From an uncultured Pelagibacteraceae bacterium (lineage in GTDB: Bacteria; Pseudomonadota; Alphaproteobacteria; Pelagibacterales; Pelagibacteraceae), in contig CACHWN010000002.1 in the NCBI GenBank assembly GCA_902583585.1, positions 62,001 through 126,000 of the forward strand: DNA of 64,000 nucleotides. Direction: 5' to 3'. The notes under the pieces are model-generated. The model was not told where the DNA came from. It saw only the letters and a list, made by a program, of their open reading frames with translations, and did not search any database. Shown piece after piece: positions 10,454 through 57,607 of this stretch (positions are counted from its first letter, which is position 1; each line of letters starts with the position of its first letter). The position numbers were made by a program, and so were the translations under genes.

Positions 10454-11034
10454 TTTTTATAAACTTTAATATAATTTAAAATATCTTTAATTGGCAAACC
10501 CATAATTGAGTCTTTATCTCCTTTAATATACTCAAATAATTTTATCCCATCAGCTTCCACTTGATAGACTCCGTATGCAAGCAACGTTTCTGTTTTAATT
10601 TTATTGAGATAATCTTTTAATTCATTATCATTTAAATTTTTCATTTTTAATTCAGAAGAGTCTGTGTGGTTCCATACCATAGCACCATTTATAGAAATAC
10701 AAACGGAACTAATCAAAAAATGTTTTGAATTATTTAGCTTTTTGAGAATTTGAAATGCTTCTTCCCTTGATTTAGGTTTGTTTATTAATTCATTATTTAA
10801 AGAAATCACACTATCAGCACCTATTACAAGTGTGTCTGGATGTTTACTGCTTACTTTTGTTGATTTTAATTCGGCTAAATTTTTTGATACCAATAACGGG
10901 CTTGCTCCCTCCGCTAAGAGTGACTCCTTTACCTCGTCCTCATCCACATTTGAAATAACTACCTCGCAATTTAGTCTATTTTCATCTAATATTTTTTTTC
11001 TTACACCGCTTTTCGAAGCTAATATTATTTTCAT
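10450..11034 (-). CDS. maf: Maf-family nucleoside triphosphate pyrophosphatase
   Basis: Maf proteins hydrolyse non-canonical or excess nucleoside triphosphates and are linked to septum control. The 194-residue product opens with MKIILASKSGVRKKIL, the conserved Ser/Arg motif that holds the triphosphate, and has the catalytic-region VIGADSVISLN (about residues 69-79) and the KPKSREEAFQIL loop. It overlaps ppsR by 4 bases and aroE by 4 bases. Confidence 0.93.
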   Translation of the reverse strand: MKIILASKSGVRKKILDENRLNCEVVISNVDEDEVKESLLAEGASPLLVSKNLAELKSTKVSSKHPDTLVIGADSVISLNNELINKPKSREEAFQILKKLNNSKHFLISSVCISINGAMVWNHTDSSELKMKNLNDNELKDYLNKIKTETLLAYGVYQVEADGIKLFEYIKGDKDSIMGLPIKDILNYIKVYKK

Positions 11035-11849
11035 TTGTGTTTTTTAATCTCAATTATTTTTAAAATTGATGCTGCAGTTTCTTCAACAGATCTTCTAGTT
11101 ACATCAATTATAGGCCAATTATTTTTTTTAAAAAGGTTTTTTGAGTCATTAATTTCCTTTCTAATAAATTCTAAGTCTGTATACTCCTTTAACTTGTGAT
11201 CTCTCATAATAGCAACTCGGTTACGTCTTATATCTGCCAGTCTGTCAGGGTCAGCCACTAAACCTACAATACATGCCTTATTGTTCAATTTAAGAGAATC
11301 TGGAATCTTTTGATCCAAAATTAAAGGAATATTTATAGTCTTAAAACCCCTGTTAGCTAAGTAAATAGAAGTTGGTGTTTTACTAGTTCTGCTTACGCCT
11401 AATAAAATAACATCTGCATCGTTTATATCATCAATTTTTTTACCGTCATCATGTGACATTGTAAATTGTATTGCTTCTATACGTCGGTAATAGTCATCAT
11501 CTAAAACATGTTGAGCGCTTGGTTTGTGGATAGCTTTTTGATTCAATAATTTTGAAAAACTTAATATTAAATTACCCAAAACTCCAAAACATGGAACATT
11601 ATTATTGATACTTTGTTTTGAGATATATTTTGCTAATTTAGTTTCCACAATTGTATATAAGATAAGAGAATTTTCTAAATTATTGCATTCCTTTATTATC
11701 TTATCAATTTGCTGCTCTGTTCTGACAAATGCAAATTCTTTCTTTTCGTATTGAAAGTTCGAGAACTGGGATTTTAAAGACAGAAATATTCTATCTAAAG
11801 TTTCACCAGTAGAATCAGACACAAGATATACATTGTATTTTTGGTTCAT
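11031..11849 (-). CDS. ppsR: Pyruvate,phosphate dikinase / PEP synthase regulatory protein
   Basis: This bifunctional kinase/phosphorylase family (DUF299) switches PPDK or PEP synthase off by ADP-dependent threonine phosphorylation and on by phosphorolysis. The 272-residue protein starts NVYLVSDSTGETL, typical of the family, and contains the ADP-binding P-loop-like GVSRTSKTPTSIYLANRG (about residues 151-168) and the C-terminal DVTRRSVEETAA. The target enzyme is not in this window. It is the first minus-strand gene left of the putative origin, as in Caulobacter-type alphaproteobacteria. Confidence 0.93.
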   Translation of the reverse strand: MNQKYNVYLVSDSTGETLDRIFLSLKSQFSNFQYEKKEFAFVRTEQQIDKIIKECNNLENSLILYTIVETKLAKYISKQSINNNVPCFGVLGNLILSFSKLLNQKAIHKPSAQHVLDDDYYRRIEAIQFTMSHDDGKKIDDINDADVILLGVSRTSKTPTSIYLANRGFKTINIPLILDQKIPDSLKLNNKACIVGLVADPDRLADIRRNRVAIMRDHKLKEYTDLEFIRKEINDSKNLFKKNNWPIIDVTRRSVEETAASILKIIEIKKHK

Positions 11850-12119
11850 ATTTTTGTTAGTAAATTATTAACAACTAATGTTTTTCCACTGCTTTTAAAT
11901 AGAGAGGGAAAACAATTAACAATAATTAACATAAATTAAACATTTTGTTCGATGTTAATAATGTTGTTTTATAAGTGTTTATAAGCTTAATAAAGTCAGC
12001 AAATTGGCGTCTTTTTTTTGAAACTTGTTAAATCTTAAATGTATAAGCACTGCATAAGAAGTTATATGTAGATTTAACATGGACATATAATACAACAATC
12101 TTTAAAGAACTTAAATTTA
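11850..12119. other. oriC: Probable chromosomal replication origin (oriC)
   Basis: This 270-base spacer, the longest here, separates divergent ppsR and hemE, the pair that flanks the origin in several alphaproteobacteria. It holds a DnaA-box-like TTTTCCACT at 11882-11890 (one change from TTWTNCACA), a reverse one (TTATAAACA read on the minus strand) at 11976-11984, and a weaker one at 12049-12057. An AT-rich block has TTAAC/TTAAC/TTAAA starting at 11916, 11926 and 11936, exactly one helical turn apart. A TATAAT at 12086-12091 is a likely hemE -10 box. No strict DnaA box is present. Origin function is inferred. Confidence 0.6.
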
Positions 12120-13130
12120 ATGAGTAATCTAAAAAATATTTTATTAAAAAAAAGAATTTGTAAATCTGTATGGTTTATGAGACAAGCAGGAAGGTATCTT
12201 CCTGAATTTAGAGATATAAGATCCAAAAATGAAGACTTTATAAATCTCTGTTTAAACAGTAAATTGAGCTCAGATATTACTTTACAACCAGTAAAAAGGT
12301 TTAATCTAGACTCAGCTATTATTTTTTCTGATATTCTTTTAGTCCCATTTGCTTTAGGTCAAAAAATATCTTTCATAAAAGATCAGGGCCCTAAATTAAG
12401 TAATTTCAACTTAGAGACTTTTTTGGATGTAAATGAAGATCAATTTATTAAAACTTTAACACCTGTGTACAAAGCTATAGAGTTAACTAGAAAAAACCTA
12501 AATAAAGATAAATCTTTAATATGTTTCATTGGAGCTCCATGGACTTTACTAGTTTACATGTTAAATTTGAAAGATTTTGAAGGAAATCTATCTTTGGATA
12601 AATTTCGTAAAGTCAACTCAAATATTAAGATTATTTTAAAAAAATTAAATAAGTTTTTATGTATTCATATCCAGAGTCAAGTAGAAGCTGGTGCTGATGT
12701 AGTCCAAGTCTTTGACTCTTGGGCAGGCATTATCCCAAAAACTTATTTGAAAGATTTATGTTTTAATACAAACTCTGAGATTATAAAATTTTGTAAAAGT
12801 AAAAATATTCCAAATATTTGTTTTCCTAAGGGAATTAAAGATAAATATAAAGATTTTAATAAATTTGTTAAACCTGATGGAATAAATATTGATTATCATG
12901 TTGATCCAGATTGGGCAAAGAAAAACCTTAAAGATGTTGTAATACAAGGTGGTGCAAATCCAAGAATATTATTAGAAAAAGAGGAAAAAATGTTAGAAGT
13001 AGCGACGAAATATATCCAGACTTTTAAAGATATTCCTTATGTTTTTAATTTAGGTCATGGCTTACTTCCAGAAACAGATCCTGATAAGGTAGATAAATTG
13101 GTTAAATTTTATAGGGATTTTAATGAATAA
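12120..13130 (+). CDS. hemE: Uroporphyrinogen decarboxylase
   Basis: HemE decarboxylates uroporphyrinogen III to coproporphyrinogen III in haem synthesis. The 336-residue protein carries the family signature VWFMRQAGRYLPEFR near residues 18-32, the second signature around GAPWTLLVYML, DSWAG in the active-site cleft, and the C-terminal NLGHGLLPETDPDKV. It is the first plus-strand gene right of the putative origin and overlaps hemH by 8 bases. Confidence 0.97.
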   Translation: MSNLKNILLKKRICKSVWFMRQAGRYLPEFRDIRSKNEDFINLCLNSKLSSDITLQPVKRFNLDSAIIFSDILLVPFALGQKISFIKDQGPKLSNFNLETFLDVNEDQFIKTLTPVYKAIELTRKNLNKDKSLICFIGAPWTLLVYMLNLKDFEGNLSLDKFRKVNSNIKIILKKLNKFLCIHIQSQVEAGADVVQVFDSWAGIIPKTYLKDLCFNTNSEIIKFCKSKNIPNICFPKGIKDKYKDFNKFVKPDGINIDYHVDPDWAKKNLKDVVIQGGANPRILLEKEEKMLEVATKYIQTFKDIPYVFNLGHGLLPETDPDKVDKLVKFYRDFNE

Positions 13131-16623: not shown

Positions 16624-16698
16624 GCGGGCATAGCTCAGTGGTAGAGCGTCTCGTTGCCAACGAGAAGGTCGAGGGTTCAAGTCCCTTTGCCCGCTCCA
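16624..16698 (+). tRNA. tRNA-Gly (anticodon GCC)
   Basis: A complete cloverleaf is visible: acceptor GCGGGCA pairing with TGCCCGC, D stem GCTC/GAGC, anticodon stem TCTCG/CGAGA with loop TTGCCAA (anticodon GCC at 16656-16658), and T stem GAGGG/CCCTT around TTCAAGT. Discriminator base T is followed by an encoded CCA at 16696-16698. It reads GGC and GGU glycine codons. The phhB start codon follows only 4 bases later. Confidence 0.98.
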
Positions 16699-21357: not shown

Positions 21358-23214
21358 TTAGTGTTGCTTACCAAGAATAGCCTTACCTGTCGGTATTCTT
21401 GTATCGTCTACTAATTTTTGTGTAGCTGGGCTTGGTTCTTTAGTCATTAAACTGACTACCACCATTACAACTAAACAAATTGGTGCTCCGATTAAACCAA
21501 ATCTTAAGTGGTCGATACCTAAGAATGGAGTATTTACACCGCCCCATATTGGAACTGAGAATTTAGGGAACACCCACGTTAAGTAAACTGTTCCTGATAT
21601 AATTCCCGCCATAATACCAGCGATTGCACCTTCTCTAGTAGCTCTCTTCCACCATACACCAAGTACAAGTGGGAAGAACAAGCCTGACATTGCAAAGTCG
21701 AATGCCCAAGCAACCGAACCTAAGATACTTGTTAGCCTGAAAGAGGCAATGTAAGCACCAGCAGCTCCGATTATTACTAGAAGTGTACGAGCAACTAATA
21801 GTCTTTTAGCAGTTTCCGCTTTTGGATTTATGATCTTGTAGTAAATGTCATGTGATAATGCATTTGAGATCGCAAGAACTAATCCATCGGCAGTTGACAT
21901 GGCAGCAGCCATACCACCAGCAAACACTAGTCCTGAGATTACGAACGGTAGACCCGCTACTTCTGGAGTAGCTAATACTACAACGTCACCTCTCATGAAC
22001 CATTCGTTCAACTGAAGTATTCCGTCACCATTAAAGTCTGCGATAAATACTTGTTTAACTTCAGACCATCTTTGTACCCACTCTATCGACTGAACTTCAG
22101 AAATAGATTTTCCAATAATTCCAGTTGGTAGATTTGGATCCATCAATGCTAATTTAGACAATGTCGCTAACATAGGCGCTGAAGAGTAAAGTAAGAAAAT
22201 AAAGAATAGCGACCAAGCTACTGATTTTCTTGCTGCTCTTACTGTAGGAGTTGTAAAGTATCTCATTAAGATATGAGGTAACGATGCAGTTCCTACCATC
22301 ATACAAATCGCTAACGATAAGTATTTCCAGACAGCCATACCACCTTCAGGTACTCCAGAGTGAGATCCAGAGATATATTTCAATCCTCCTGGTACCCCAG
22401 CTGCTTTCATATCTGCGGCGCTGTTTTTAACTAGTCCAAATTGTTGTTCAAGTTCACCAAGTCTTGCAACTTCATCACCTAACATTAAGTGAGGGAAAAT
22501 TCCTCCACCTACGTTATTACTAATCCAGAATACTGGTATTAAGTATGCGATGATTAATACAATGTACTGAGCAACCTGTGTCCAAGTTACGGCTCTCATC
22601 CCACCAAGCATTGAACAGATAAGGATACTTATTAATCCTACCCATACACCTGCTTCAAACGGAATTCCAAGAGCTCTAGAAGCAATTGTTCCCGTAGCAT
22701 TAATTTGAGCTGTTACGTAAGTAAATGATGCTATGAAAAGCACGAATACTGAGCAAGCTCTTACAAGATTACCACCGTATCGCGTTCCGATAAAATCAGG
22801 AACTGTGTAACATCCAAACTTTCTTAGGTACGGAGCCATTAGAGTTGCAACAAGTACGTATCCACCTGTCCAACCTACTAAGAAGGCCATGTAAGTATAG
22901 CCACCAAAGTAAACTCCACCCGCTAAAGCTACGAATGATGCACCTGACATCCAGTCAGCTGCTGTTGCCATTCCGTTAAATACGGTTGGCACTTGTCTTC
23001 CTGCAACATAGTAGGCATCTACTTGAATGGTTCTTGATAAATATCCGATTAAGGCATAAATCAATACCGTGAAAGCTACGAACATCACTCCGATGTTTTT
23101 AGCTGACACACCTGCTTGCTCTGCTAGTGCCATTAATATAATGAACACTAAAAAGCCACCAGTGTAGGTACCATATATTTTAGGAAGGTTTTGTATAAAA
23201 TCTCCTTTAAACAT
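21358..23214 (-). CDS. Sodium/solute symporter large subunit (VC_2705-type, acetate-like)
   Basis: A 618-residue SSS-family carrier with about 13 transmembrane helices. Visible family features are SRTIQVDAYYVAGRQVPTVFNG, a MATAADWMSGASFVALAG substrate/sodium region, and FAGGMAAAMSTADGLVLAISNALSHD around helix 8. It carries a long soluble insertion (about residues 245-280 and 365-405), the latter containing DFNGDGILQLNEW, which looks like an EF-hand-type DxNxDG loop. It pairs with the DUF4212 small subunit, sharing the junction. Relatives take up acetate, pyruvate or lactate; with acs nearby, acetate is a reasonable guess. Confidence 0.88.
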   Translation of the reverse strand: MFKGDFIQNLPKIYGTYTGGFLVFIILMALAEQAGVSAKNIGVMFVAFTVLIYALIGYLSRTIQVDAYYVAGRQVPTVFNGMATAADWMSGASFVALAGGVYFGGYTYMAFLVGWTGGYVLVATLMAPYLRKFGCYTVPDFIGTRYGGNLVRACSVFVLFIASFTYVTAQINATGTIASRALGIPFEAGVWVGLISILICSMLGGMRAVTWTQVAQYIVLIIAYLIPVFWISNNVGGGIFPHLMLGDEVARLGELEQQFGLVKNSAADMKAAGVPGGLKYISGSHSGVPEGGMAVWKYLSLAICMMVGTASLPHILMRYFTTPTVRAARKSVAWSLFFIFLLYSSAPMLATLSKLALMDPNLPTGIIGKSISEVQSIEWVQRWSEVKQVFIADFNGDGILQLNEWFMRGDVVVLATPEVAGLPFVISGLVFAGGMAAAMSTADGLVLAISNALSHDIYYKIINPKAETAKRLLVARTLLVIIGAAGAYIASFRLTSILGSVAWAFDFAMSGLFFPLVLGVWWKRATREGAIAGIMAGIISGTVYLTWVFPKFSVPIWGGVNTPFLGIDHLRFGLIGAPICLVVMVVVSLMTKEPSPATQKLVDDTRIPTGKAILGKQH

Positions 23215-23471
23215 TAGTCATCCTCTCTTTCTGAGAAACCATGTTCTTCGTCGATTTTTTCTTGTTTATTTGCAGTCCAAAACAAAATTATCACAAAGGC
23301 AAGAAGTGAACCTTGCGCAGTCATGTAATATGCTAATGGATAGCCAAGAAAAGACATCGTGTTCAGTTCTGAACCAAACATGAAGATCACTAATGAGAAG
23401 AAAGCCCAAAGAACCAATGTAACTATCATATGGTTTTTGGTCTTATTCCAATATGCGTCTTTATTTGACAT
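23214..23471 (-). CDS. Symporter small subunit (DUF4212)
   Basis: An 85-residue protein with two transmembrane helices (about residues 14-34 and 46-66) and the DUF4212 pattern YWNKTKNHMIVTLVLWAFFS followed by GYPLAYYMTAQGSL. DUF4212 proteins are the small partners of the VC_2705-type symporters, and the stop codon here overlaps the start of the large subunit. An 18-bp palindrome lies 23 bases upstream of its start. Confidence 0.92.
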   Translation of the reverse strand: MSNKDAYWNKTKNHMIVTLVLWAFFSLVIFMFGSELNTMSFLGYPLAYYMTAQGSLLAFVIILFWTANKQEKIDEEHGFSEREDD

Positions 23472-23493
23472 ATTTCCCCCTATTTATTTTTTA

Positions 23494-23511
23494 ACTTTTT
23501 ACGTAAAAAGT
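23494..23511. promoter_or_regulatory. Perfect 18-bp palindrome, candidate operator
   Basis: ACTTTTTACGTAAAAAGT is its own reverse complement over all 18 bases and sits 23 bases upstream of the DUF4212 start codon, in the divergent spacer shared with the unknown gene at 23627. Symmetric sites of this length in such a position are typical of dimeric repressors or activators. It has no T-tract terminator geometry. No matching regulator is in the window. Confidence 0.55.
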
Positions 23512-23626
23512 ACTCTTATTGCACGGGAGCATACTGATTATGAGTTGAATTAAAAGAGAAAAAAGGACCCCAAAACCAATTTGAAATGCTATAAGACAAG
23601 TAAATAAAGGGTTTTTTAAATACAAC

Positions 23627-57505: not shown

Positions 57506-57583
57506 CCGCAAATACACTTGTTTTTGCGGTGCTCTTGAAATCAAGAGCGTCGACACTAGTCAGCGAAGGTTCGCCCACTAGTG
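57506..57583 (+). ncRNA. Three back-to-back hairpins in the ffh leader
   Basis: CCGCAAA (57506-57512) pairs with TTTGCGG (57523-57529); GCTCTTG (57531-57537) with CAAGAGC (57542-57548), loop AAAT; CACTAGT (57554-57560) with ACTAGTG (57577-57583), holding an inner GCGA/TCGC stem (57563-57566, 57571-57574). Gaps are 1 and 5 bases. GC content is high for this genome. It ends 24 bases before the ffh ATG. The SRP RNA core (GGUCAGG...GGAAGCAGCC-type) was not found, so it is a leader or small RNA, not 4.5S RNA. I recall a structured RNA near ffh being proposed for SAR11, but cannot verify it. Confidence 0.7.
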
Positions 57584-57607
57584 CGATAGGTGTTGGACGT
57601 TATAAAA

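Follow-up and report, generated by a model that had tools for sequence, protein, structure and literature searches.

The closest described counterpart of the locus reported here is the chromosomal origin that lies between hemE and a COG1806 gene, which PMC1914354 describes as mapped in Caulobacter and predicted in Rickettsia. In Caulobacter, six-base weak W-boxes are found beside nine-base G-boxes (PMC4285127, PMC4468827), and in E. coli the helical phasing between DnaA boxes matters (PMC4285127). The basal unwinding system is described as a DnaA box, a gap, and then DnaA-trios, the box being within 16 bp of at least three 3'-NAN-5' trios, of which 3'-GAT-5' is the commonest (PMC8287927). The nonamer TTATTAACA has been proposed as a DnaA box in Mycoplasma hominis, M. 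mobile, and M. arthritidis (PMC2751442). PMC2031905, whose chromosomes include Pelagibacter, set oriC by rule at the first base of dnaA. In the library that was searched for a Pelagibacter or SAR11 origin, no listed title or opening abstract text was found that describes one, and none of the passages seen places it at the spacer described below.

The stretch analyzed here, the window, covers 64 kb (G000:C2:62001-126000) of a contig that is 155.6 kb long; the draft genome totals 922 kb, is split over 25 contigs, and is 83% complete. The genome belongs to SAR11, which is among the most abundant marine bacterial groups. From sequence comparison we propose that this Pelagibacteraceae chromosome very likely has its origin in the 270-bp spacer that separates ppsR from hemE. 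The features of the locus are as follows.

11031..11849, minus strand: ppsR (COG1806/DUF299 kinase-pyrophosphorylase), left flank, from its PF03618 match
11850..12119, no strand: predicted origin spacer between the divergent ppsR and hemE, 270 bp
11855..11863, minus strand: left box position, degenerate here, TTACTAACA, from alignments
11865..11873, plus strand: DnaA-type box TTATTAACA, from motif match
11882..11890, plus strand: DnaA-like site TTTTCCACT, its position semi-conserved within the genus, from motif match and alignment
11916..11921, plus strand: array unit 1, TTAACA, from motif match and alignment columns
11926..11931, plus strand: array unit 2, TTAACA, from motif match and alignment columns
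11936..11942, plus strand: array unit 3, TTAAACA, from motif match and alignment columns
11953..11961, minus strand: DnaA-type box TTATTAACA, from motif match
11976..11984, minus strand: DnaA-type box TTATAAACA, aligned with TTATACACA in L040 and L041, from motif match and alignment
12038..12046, minus strand: TTATACATT, at the genus-conserved TTATACAT element, from motif count and alignment
12071..12110, plus strand: hemE-proximal element, with a degenerate box GATTTAACA, a TGGAC gap, and a trio-like stretch without CTA, from consensus and alignment
12120..13130, plus strand: hemE (uroporphyrinogen decarboxylase), right flank, from its PF01208 match

A reading made earlier from the sequence alone had placed ppsR and hemE divergently around 11850-12119, and the matches to PF03618 and PF01208 bear this out. 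Of the genes that it had named on the left arm, the following also have Pfam matches: maf, aroE, coaE, a dnaQ-type exonuclease, secB, fxsA, a Tim44-like gene, smr, and hslU-type and hslV-type genes. Its statement that no intergenic gap of the window is longer than the spacer holds in the mechanical ORF list when an 85-aa ORF at 23214-23471 is counted; the sole larger gap among ORFs of at least 90 aa, 23215-23626, contains that ORF. The 85-aa ORF (minus strand) adjoins a 618-aa membrane transporter-like ORF at 21358-23214 (minus strand), and we take it to be possibly a small subunit of this neighboring protein. Rfam matches in the window are a tRNA at 16624-16695 and the ffh sRNA family at 57539-57591. 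The dnaA gene is on the same contig, about 72 kb off toward the ppsR side, and in the 14 genomes with both places listed it is about 61-74 kb from the spacer. By eye, the region upstream of the dnaA gene of this genome has no TTATNMACA.

The gene pair and the length of the spacer are conserved. hemE was detected in 166 of 197 genomes of the family, and 90 Pelagibacteraceae loci were fetched, consisting of the 30 best-scoring hemE loci (our own included) and 60 hand-picked across genera, 59 of them from the hemE search and one (G272) from another search. ppsR was divergent beside hemE in all 90. The spacer was 252-300 bp in the 77 loci where it was measured from both genes, with start codons extrapolated; in the remaining 13, where a short piece of hemE gave no tblastn match, hemE was placed from the earlier hemE search and the hemE-end element and a length of 272 bp was taken for the spacer. 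A named collection of 80 loci, nearly all from Pelagibacteraceae, Pelagibacterales, or Pelagibacter and one from a Rickettsiales bacterium, has the divergent pair in 79 with spacers of 267-295 bp, the 80th being interrupted by a contig end. In a class-wide search the pair was present in 28 of the 30 loci kept, and the spacer was 332-1037 bp in the 27 of these that are outside the family.

The motifs in a spacer between divergent genes could be promoter or regulator sites of ppsR and hemE, the origin being elsewhere, for example, beside dnaA; TTATACAT and the hemE-end elements do lie where the hemE promoter could be. However, the spacer and its boxes persist after the loss of either gene. In the sister family (f2), ppsR was not found in the 16 genomes listed nor in 15 hemE loci (L163-L177), and in all 15 of these loci maf replaces it and is divergent from hemE across a spacer of 268-291 bp. 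Most of these spacers, as judged by eye, end in a CACAGG box followed by repeats bearing CTA or CAA. In G009 (L219), the one locus of its kind, no hemE was found at the ppsR locus and the gene across the spacer reads as rho; this spacer has three TTATNAACA sites, one of them followed by TGACCTAATAAC. That the spacer is kept after the loss of ppsR or of hemE argues against its being a mere promoter region. In addition, the mapped Caulobacter origin is flanked by the same gene pair (PMC1914354), the A/C pattern described below matches position 6 of the DnaA box, and outgroups have canonical boxes and CTA repeats at this place. We consider it very unlikely that the motifs only serve the two promoters, and the spacer as origin is the reading followed here.

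The strict DnaA box, TTWTNCACA, had been reported absent from the spacer and it is; across the 64-kb window it occurs 9 times against 10 expected. Two DnaA-like sites had been counted in the spacer, but there are actually four sites one mismatch from TTWTNCACA, at 11865, 11882, 11953, and 11976. Neither the one-mismatch sites (221 against 246 expected) nor TTATNMACA (9 against 12 expected) is enriched window-wide, and 3 of the 9 TTATNMACA sites are inside the spacer. The whole 155.6-kb contig has 18 TTATNAACA sites, of which three are in the spacer, and no 270-bp stretch elsewhere on the contig has two. In G003, of which a third was sampled, TTATNAACA sites are likewise most closely packed in the spacer (three within 300 bp), and in G005, where the spacer locus was fetched in addition to the sample, the 300 bp richest in them has four, three of which are inside the spacer. 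G177, which is of the window's own genus, has a spacer without any TTATNMACA and this spacer is not the densest place. The left box position, which is degenerate in the window, reads TTATTAACA in most members of the genus and TTATACACA, TTTTCCACA, or TTATTCACA in some other genera. Near hemE, TTATACAT is strongly conserved: the 45 own-genus spacers have 62 copies of it where 5.0 are expected.

When the spacers of the family are compared, the spelling of the box is found to differ from the usual one at position 6. Expected counts were obtained from dinucleotide shuffles, and because the spacers are related by descent the motif counts are not independent. The A6 pattern, TTATNAACA, has 93 copies in the 45 own-genus spacers, where 6.3 are expected (41 spacers with at least one, 4 without), and 82 copies in 45 spacers of other genera, where 6.2 are expected (42 with at least one, 3 without). 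The canonical TTATNCACA is at chance level in the own-genus set, 2 against 1.4, and enriched in the other-genus set, 20 against 1.3. In these same two sets of 45, TTATNTACA (T6) occurs 1 time against 5.6 and 9 times against 7.0, and TTATNGACA 0 times against 1.0 and 3 times against 0.8. A further 69 distinct spacers have 125 TTATNAACA (8.9 expected), 38 TTATNCACA (2.1 expected), 13 TTATNTACA (9.3 expected), and 4 TTATNGACA (1.9 expected). Over 159 distinct spacers, position 6 is A in 300 against 22.2 expected, C in 60 against 5.2, G in 7 against 3.5, and T in 23 against 21.7, that is, enrichments of 13.5, 11.5, 2.0, and 1.1 fold. At the remaining fixed positions of the box the canonical base predominates, but TAATNAACA (121 against 21.9), TTACNAACA (32 against 6.2), and TTATNCATA (88 against 14.3) show smaller excesses, as do, with small counts, variants at positions 7 and 9 of the C6 box.

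A and C also interchange at aligned sites. In genus g4, spacer coordinate 85-86 carries TTATTAACA, TTATAAACA, TTATTCACA, or TTATCCACA depending on the species. The hemE-end box has A at position 6 in 73, C in 15, and T in 2 of the 90 spacers, and Fitch parsimony on the ppsR tree requires at least 9 changes at this position of the hemE-end box and 9 at the left box. In the sister family, C is at position 6 of the hemE-end box in 14 of 15 by eye, and C is therefore probably ancestral. The spacers of the family are very AT-rich, with a mean G+C of 18%, and AT mutation pressure could have produced A6 boxes as decayed sites that are tolerated without selection. Decay of this kind should turn C to T too, yet TTATNTACA is at chance over the 159 spacers while the A6 count is far above it, and we think decay quite unlikely. 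The comparisons instead give good support to the proposal that the DnaA-box spelling of the family has been recoded to TTATN(A/C)ACA, in which position 6 is more often A than the usual C. The earlier suggestion that DnaA recognition may be relaxed gains support from this family-wide use of TTATNMACA.

The DnaA protein of this genome passes TIGR00362 with 478 bits against a cut-off of 344 and, when aligned to E. coli 1j1v, its domain IV keeps R399, P423, D433, H434, T435, and H439, which are the base-contacting residues of DnaA (PMC7561715). At the residue equivalent to E. coli G430 (numbered by counting from D433), all 25 Pelagibacteraceae DnaAs read, in sets of 17, 7, and 1, have A, S, T, or C. 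Among 37 DnaAs from other alphaproteobacteria, 36 have G there and L384 has a deletion. The 37 outgroup proteins are a set of 11, four of them from the sister family, and a set of 26; the second-copy matches L394 and L395 and the fragment L393 were excluded from the comparison, and G008, G358, and G446 gave no match. On balance we lean slightly toward a family-wide coevolution in which the initiator would have lost the glycine before the recognition helix (G430) and the boxes would have moved from TTATNCACA to TTATN(A/C)ACA, one genus having added a one-turn array of TTMACA half-boxes. The substitution at the G430 position may be causally linked to the A6 boxes. A tie of the A6 boxes to N after the G430 position was considered and rejected because genera g5 and g12 have G there yet use A6.

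The array had been read as TTAAC repeats at 11916, 11926, and 11936. All three starts stand, with TTAA at each, but the third unit is TTAAAC and not TTAAC; the window's ACA cores follow one another at 10 and 11 bp. TAACA-N5-TAACA is expected in 0.3 of the 45 own-genus spacers and is found in 30; for the 45 others the expectation is 0.4 and the count 3. The array is near-exclusive to the window's genus. ACA is invariant in all three units in all 45 own-genus spacers. At the base that corresponds to box position 6, unit 1 has A in 39 and C in 6, unit 2 has A in 42 and C in 3, and unit 3 has A in 41 and T in 4, so that it is units 1 and 2 only that show the A/C variation at this position. In some relatives the units read TTCACA or CTCACA. 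These data suggest that the array is likely a row of weak DnaA sites along one face of the helix, one turn apart. The alignment across relatives that had been proposed as a check thus finds both the array and the DnaA-like sites conserved.

CtrA-like sites had been offered as another meaning of the TTAA elements, in which case the array would be a response-regulator site that silences the origin. TTAA-N7-TTAA is moderately enriched, being in 23 of 45 own-genus spacers against 9.6 expected and in 17 of 45 others against 10.0, but it is absent from the window's spacer, where the spacing is TTAA-N6-TTAA, and the TTCACA and CTCACA units break TTAA. None of 16 genomes has a protein above the cut-off of the CtrA model (best 148 of 350 bits), which is a Rhodobacterales-type model that 1 of 14 controls passes, and Brilli 2010 reports Pelagibacter without a ctrA ortholog (PMC2877005). 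A CtrA-like role of the array is most improbable, and the suggestion was not borne out. The IHF consensus, WATCAN5WTR, does not occur in the window's own spacer, and in the family IHF sites are at chance, since 30 of 90 spacers have one and single-base shuffles predict 32. The own genome has an OmpR-type DNA-binding protein of about 200 aa (L083; G000:C2:45322-45531, minus strand) with an N-terminal half unlike a normal receiver. In G005, a 174-aa ORF (L079) adjoins phoB; we take this ORF to resemble GcrA.

At the hemE end of the spacer the family consensus from 90 spacers is ATTAACAGGACCTAATACTAATACTA, and the element reads TTATCCACAGGGATCAACAACAACTACAACC in the outgroup L224 and TTCACAGGTACAACTACTACTACTA in the sister-family L174. 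At least two in-frame CTA are present within 32 bp after the box in 51 of the 90 spacers, a pattern shown by 1.0% of the control segments (3526 in all). In 64 of the 90 there is an NTN run of at least three, the same rate as in the control segments. The window's own copy is degenerate and has no CTA. A box-plus-trio element at this place is likely for the family and weak in the window, and it is plausible that the duplex would open at the hemE end. The TTAA-type repeats had been suggested as an unwinding element, and opening could start at the array instead, which consists of AT-rich direct repeats one turn apart with boxes on both sides, in a window whose hemE-end element has no CTA. This is possible but less likely than opening at the hemE-proximal box and CTA repeats, since the hemE-end element is shared by several outgroups as well as by the sister family, and the array is nearly restricted to one genus; moreover, the array units vary in the way that DnaA boxes do. 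We thus regard the array as a rather unlikely opening site and prefer the hemE end.

The skew check that had been proposed gave a divided result. In the window's genus the minimum is at or near the spacer on two contigs: on our own contig the cumulative minimum is about 16 kb beyond the spacer, and in G177 it falls inside the sampled stretch containing the spacer. For the three complete genomes from outside this genus the picture is mixed: the detrended minimum of G005 is 12-32 kb from the spacer, that of G003 about 115-130 kb, and that of G043 240-260 kb; the minima of the last two, away from the spacer, favor the explanation that the motifs are promoter sites and the origin is elsewhere. Skew at four-fold sites gave no support for the spacer as origin. 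Gene-strand fits for the G005, G003, and G043 set with the origin at the spacer gave R2 values of 0.28, 0.39, and 0.26 against best values of 0.40, 0.46, and 0.42. A block of about 10-17 kb that includes ppsR, the spacer, and hemE is inverted in place in G003 and G043 relative to our own genome, G177, and G005, with dnaA on the other side. The swap of the dnaA arm between g4 and the others was considered as origin-symmetric inversions and dropped; it is not counted as evidence because a single in-place inversion of this block explains the gene order equally. dif was also dropped as a terminus marker because PMC2731167 reports Pelagibacter without the dif/Xer system.

The gene pair, the conserved length, the box enrichment, and the persistence of the spacer support the hemE/COG1806 (Caulobacter/Rickettsia)-type chromosomal origin that had been proposed for this locus; this gene context, length, motif enrichment, and persistence, the A/C interchange, and the lack of CtrA above the cut-off are direct readings of the sequences. 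The explanation as a whole, which we hold to be probable, is that the spacer is a SAR11 origin where DnaA acts on TTATN(A/C)ACA boxes and the array, with opening most likely proximal to hemE. DnaA would bind several boxes of the family consensus, presumably including A6 boxes. In the window's genus it would also fill the helically phased weaker TTMACA sites, thereby building an oligomer. This oligomer would then open the duplex, most likely at the hemE-proximal end, which in most of the family has a box followed by CTA-rich trio-like DNA, and the helicase would be loaded at this opening.

One read-depth growth method puts dnaA-bearing fragments at the origin (PMC7852909), and a placed origin would let such methods anchor at the spacer. 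The locus also offers a definite example, open to experiment, of joint change in an initiator protein and its sites. Lastly, the locus is a warning that origin finders based on a consensus can miss real boxes, as the standard consensus misses the SAR11 spelling.

Compared with Cori of Caulobacter crescentus and the Rickettsia origins, the SAR11 spacer has the same flanking genes and is likewise AT-rich, but it is about 270 bp and not 383-404 bp, it is without CtrA, without enrichment of IHF sites, and, in the window, without a strict box, and it has A6 boxes. The TTATTAACA boxes of mycoplasmas are the same nine-mer, although they are in another phylum and are located beside dnaA. Resembling the basal unwinding system in layout, the hemE end has a putative box, a short gap, and CTA repeats, which are 3'-GAT-5' on the opposite strand; unlike that system, the box is often A6, CTA alternates with ATA, and the window's copy is degenerate. 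As with the W-boxes of Caulobacter, short weak sites accompany nine-base sites, but the W-box is TCCCCA, whereas the SAR11 units are TTMACA and are arranged in tandem one turn apart.
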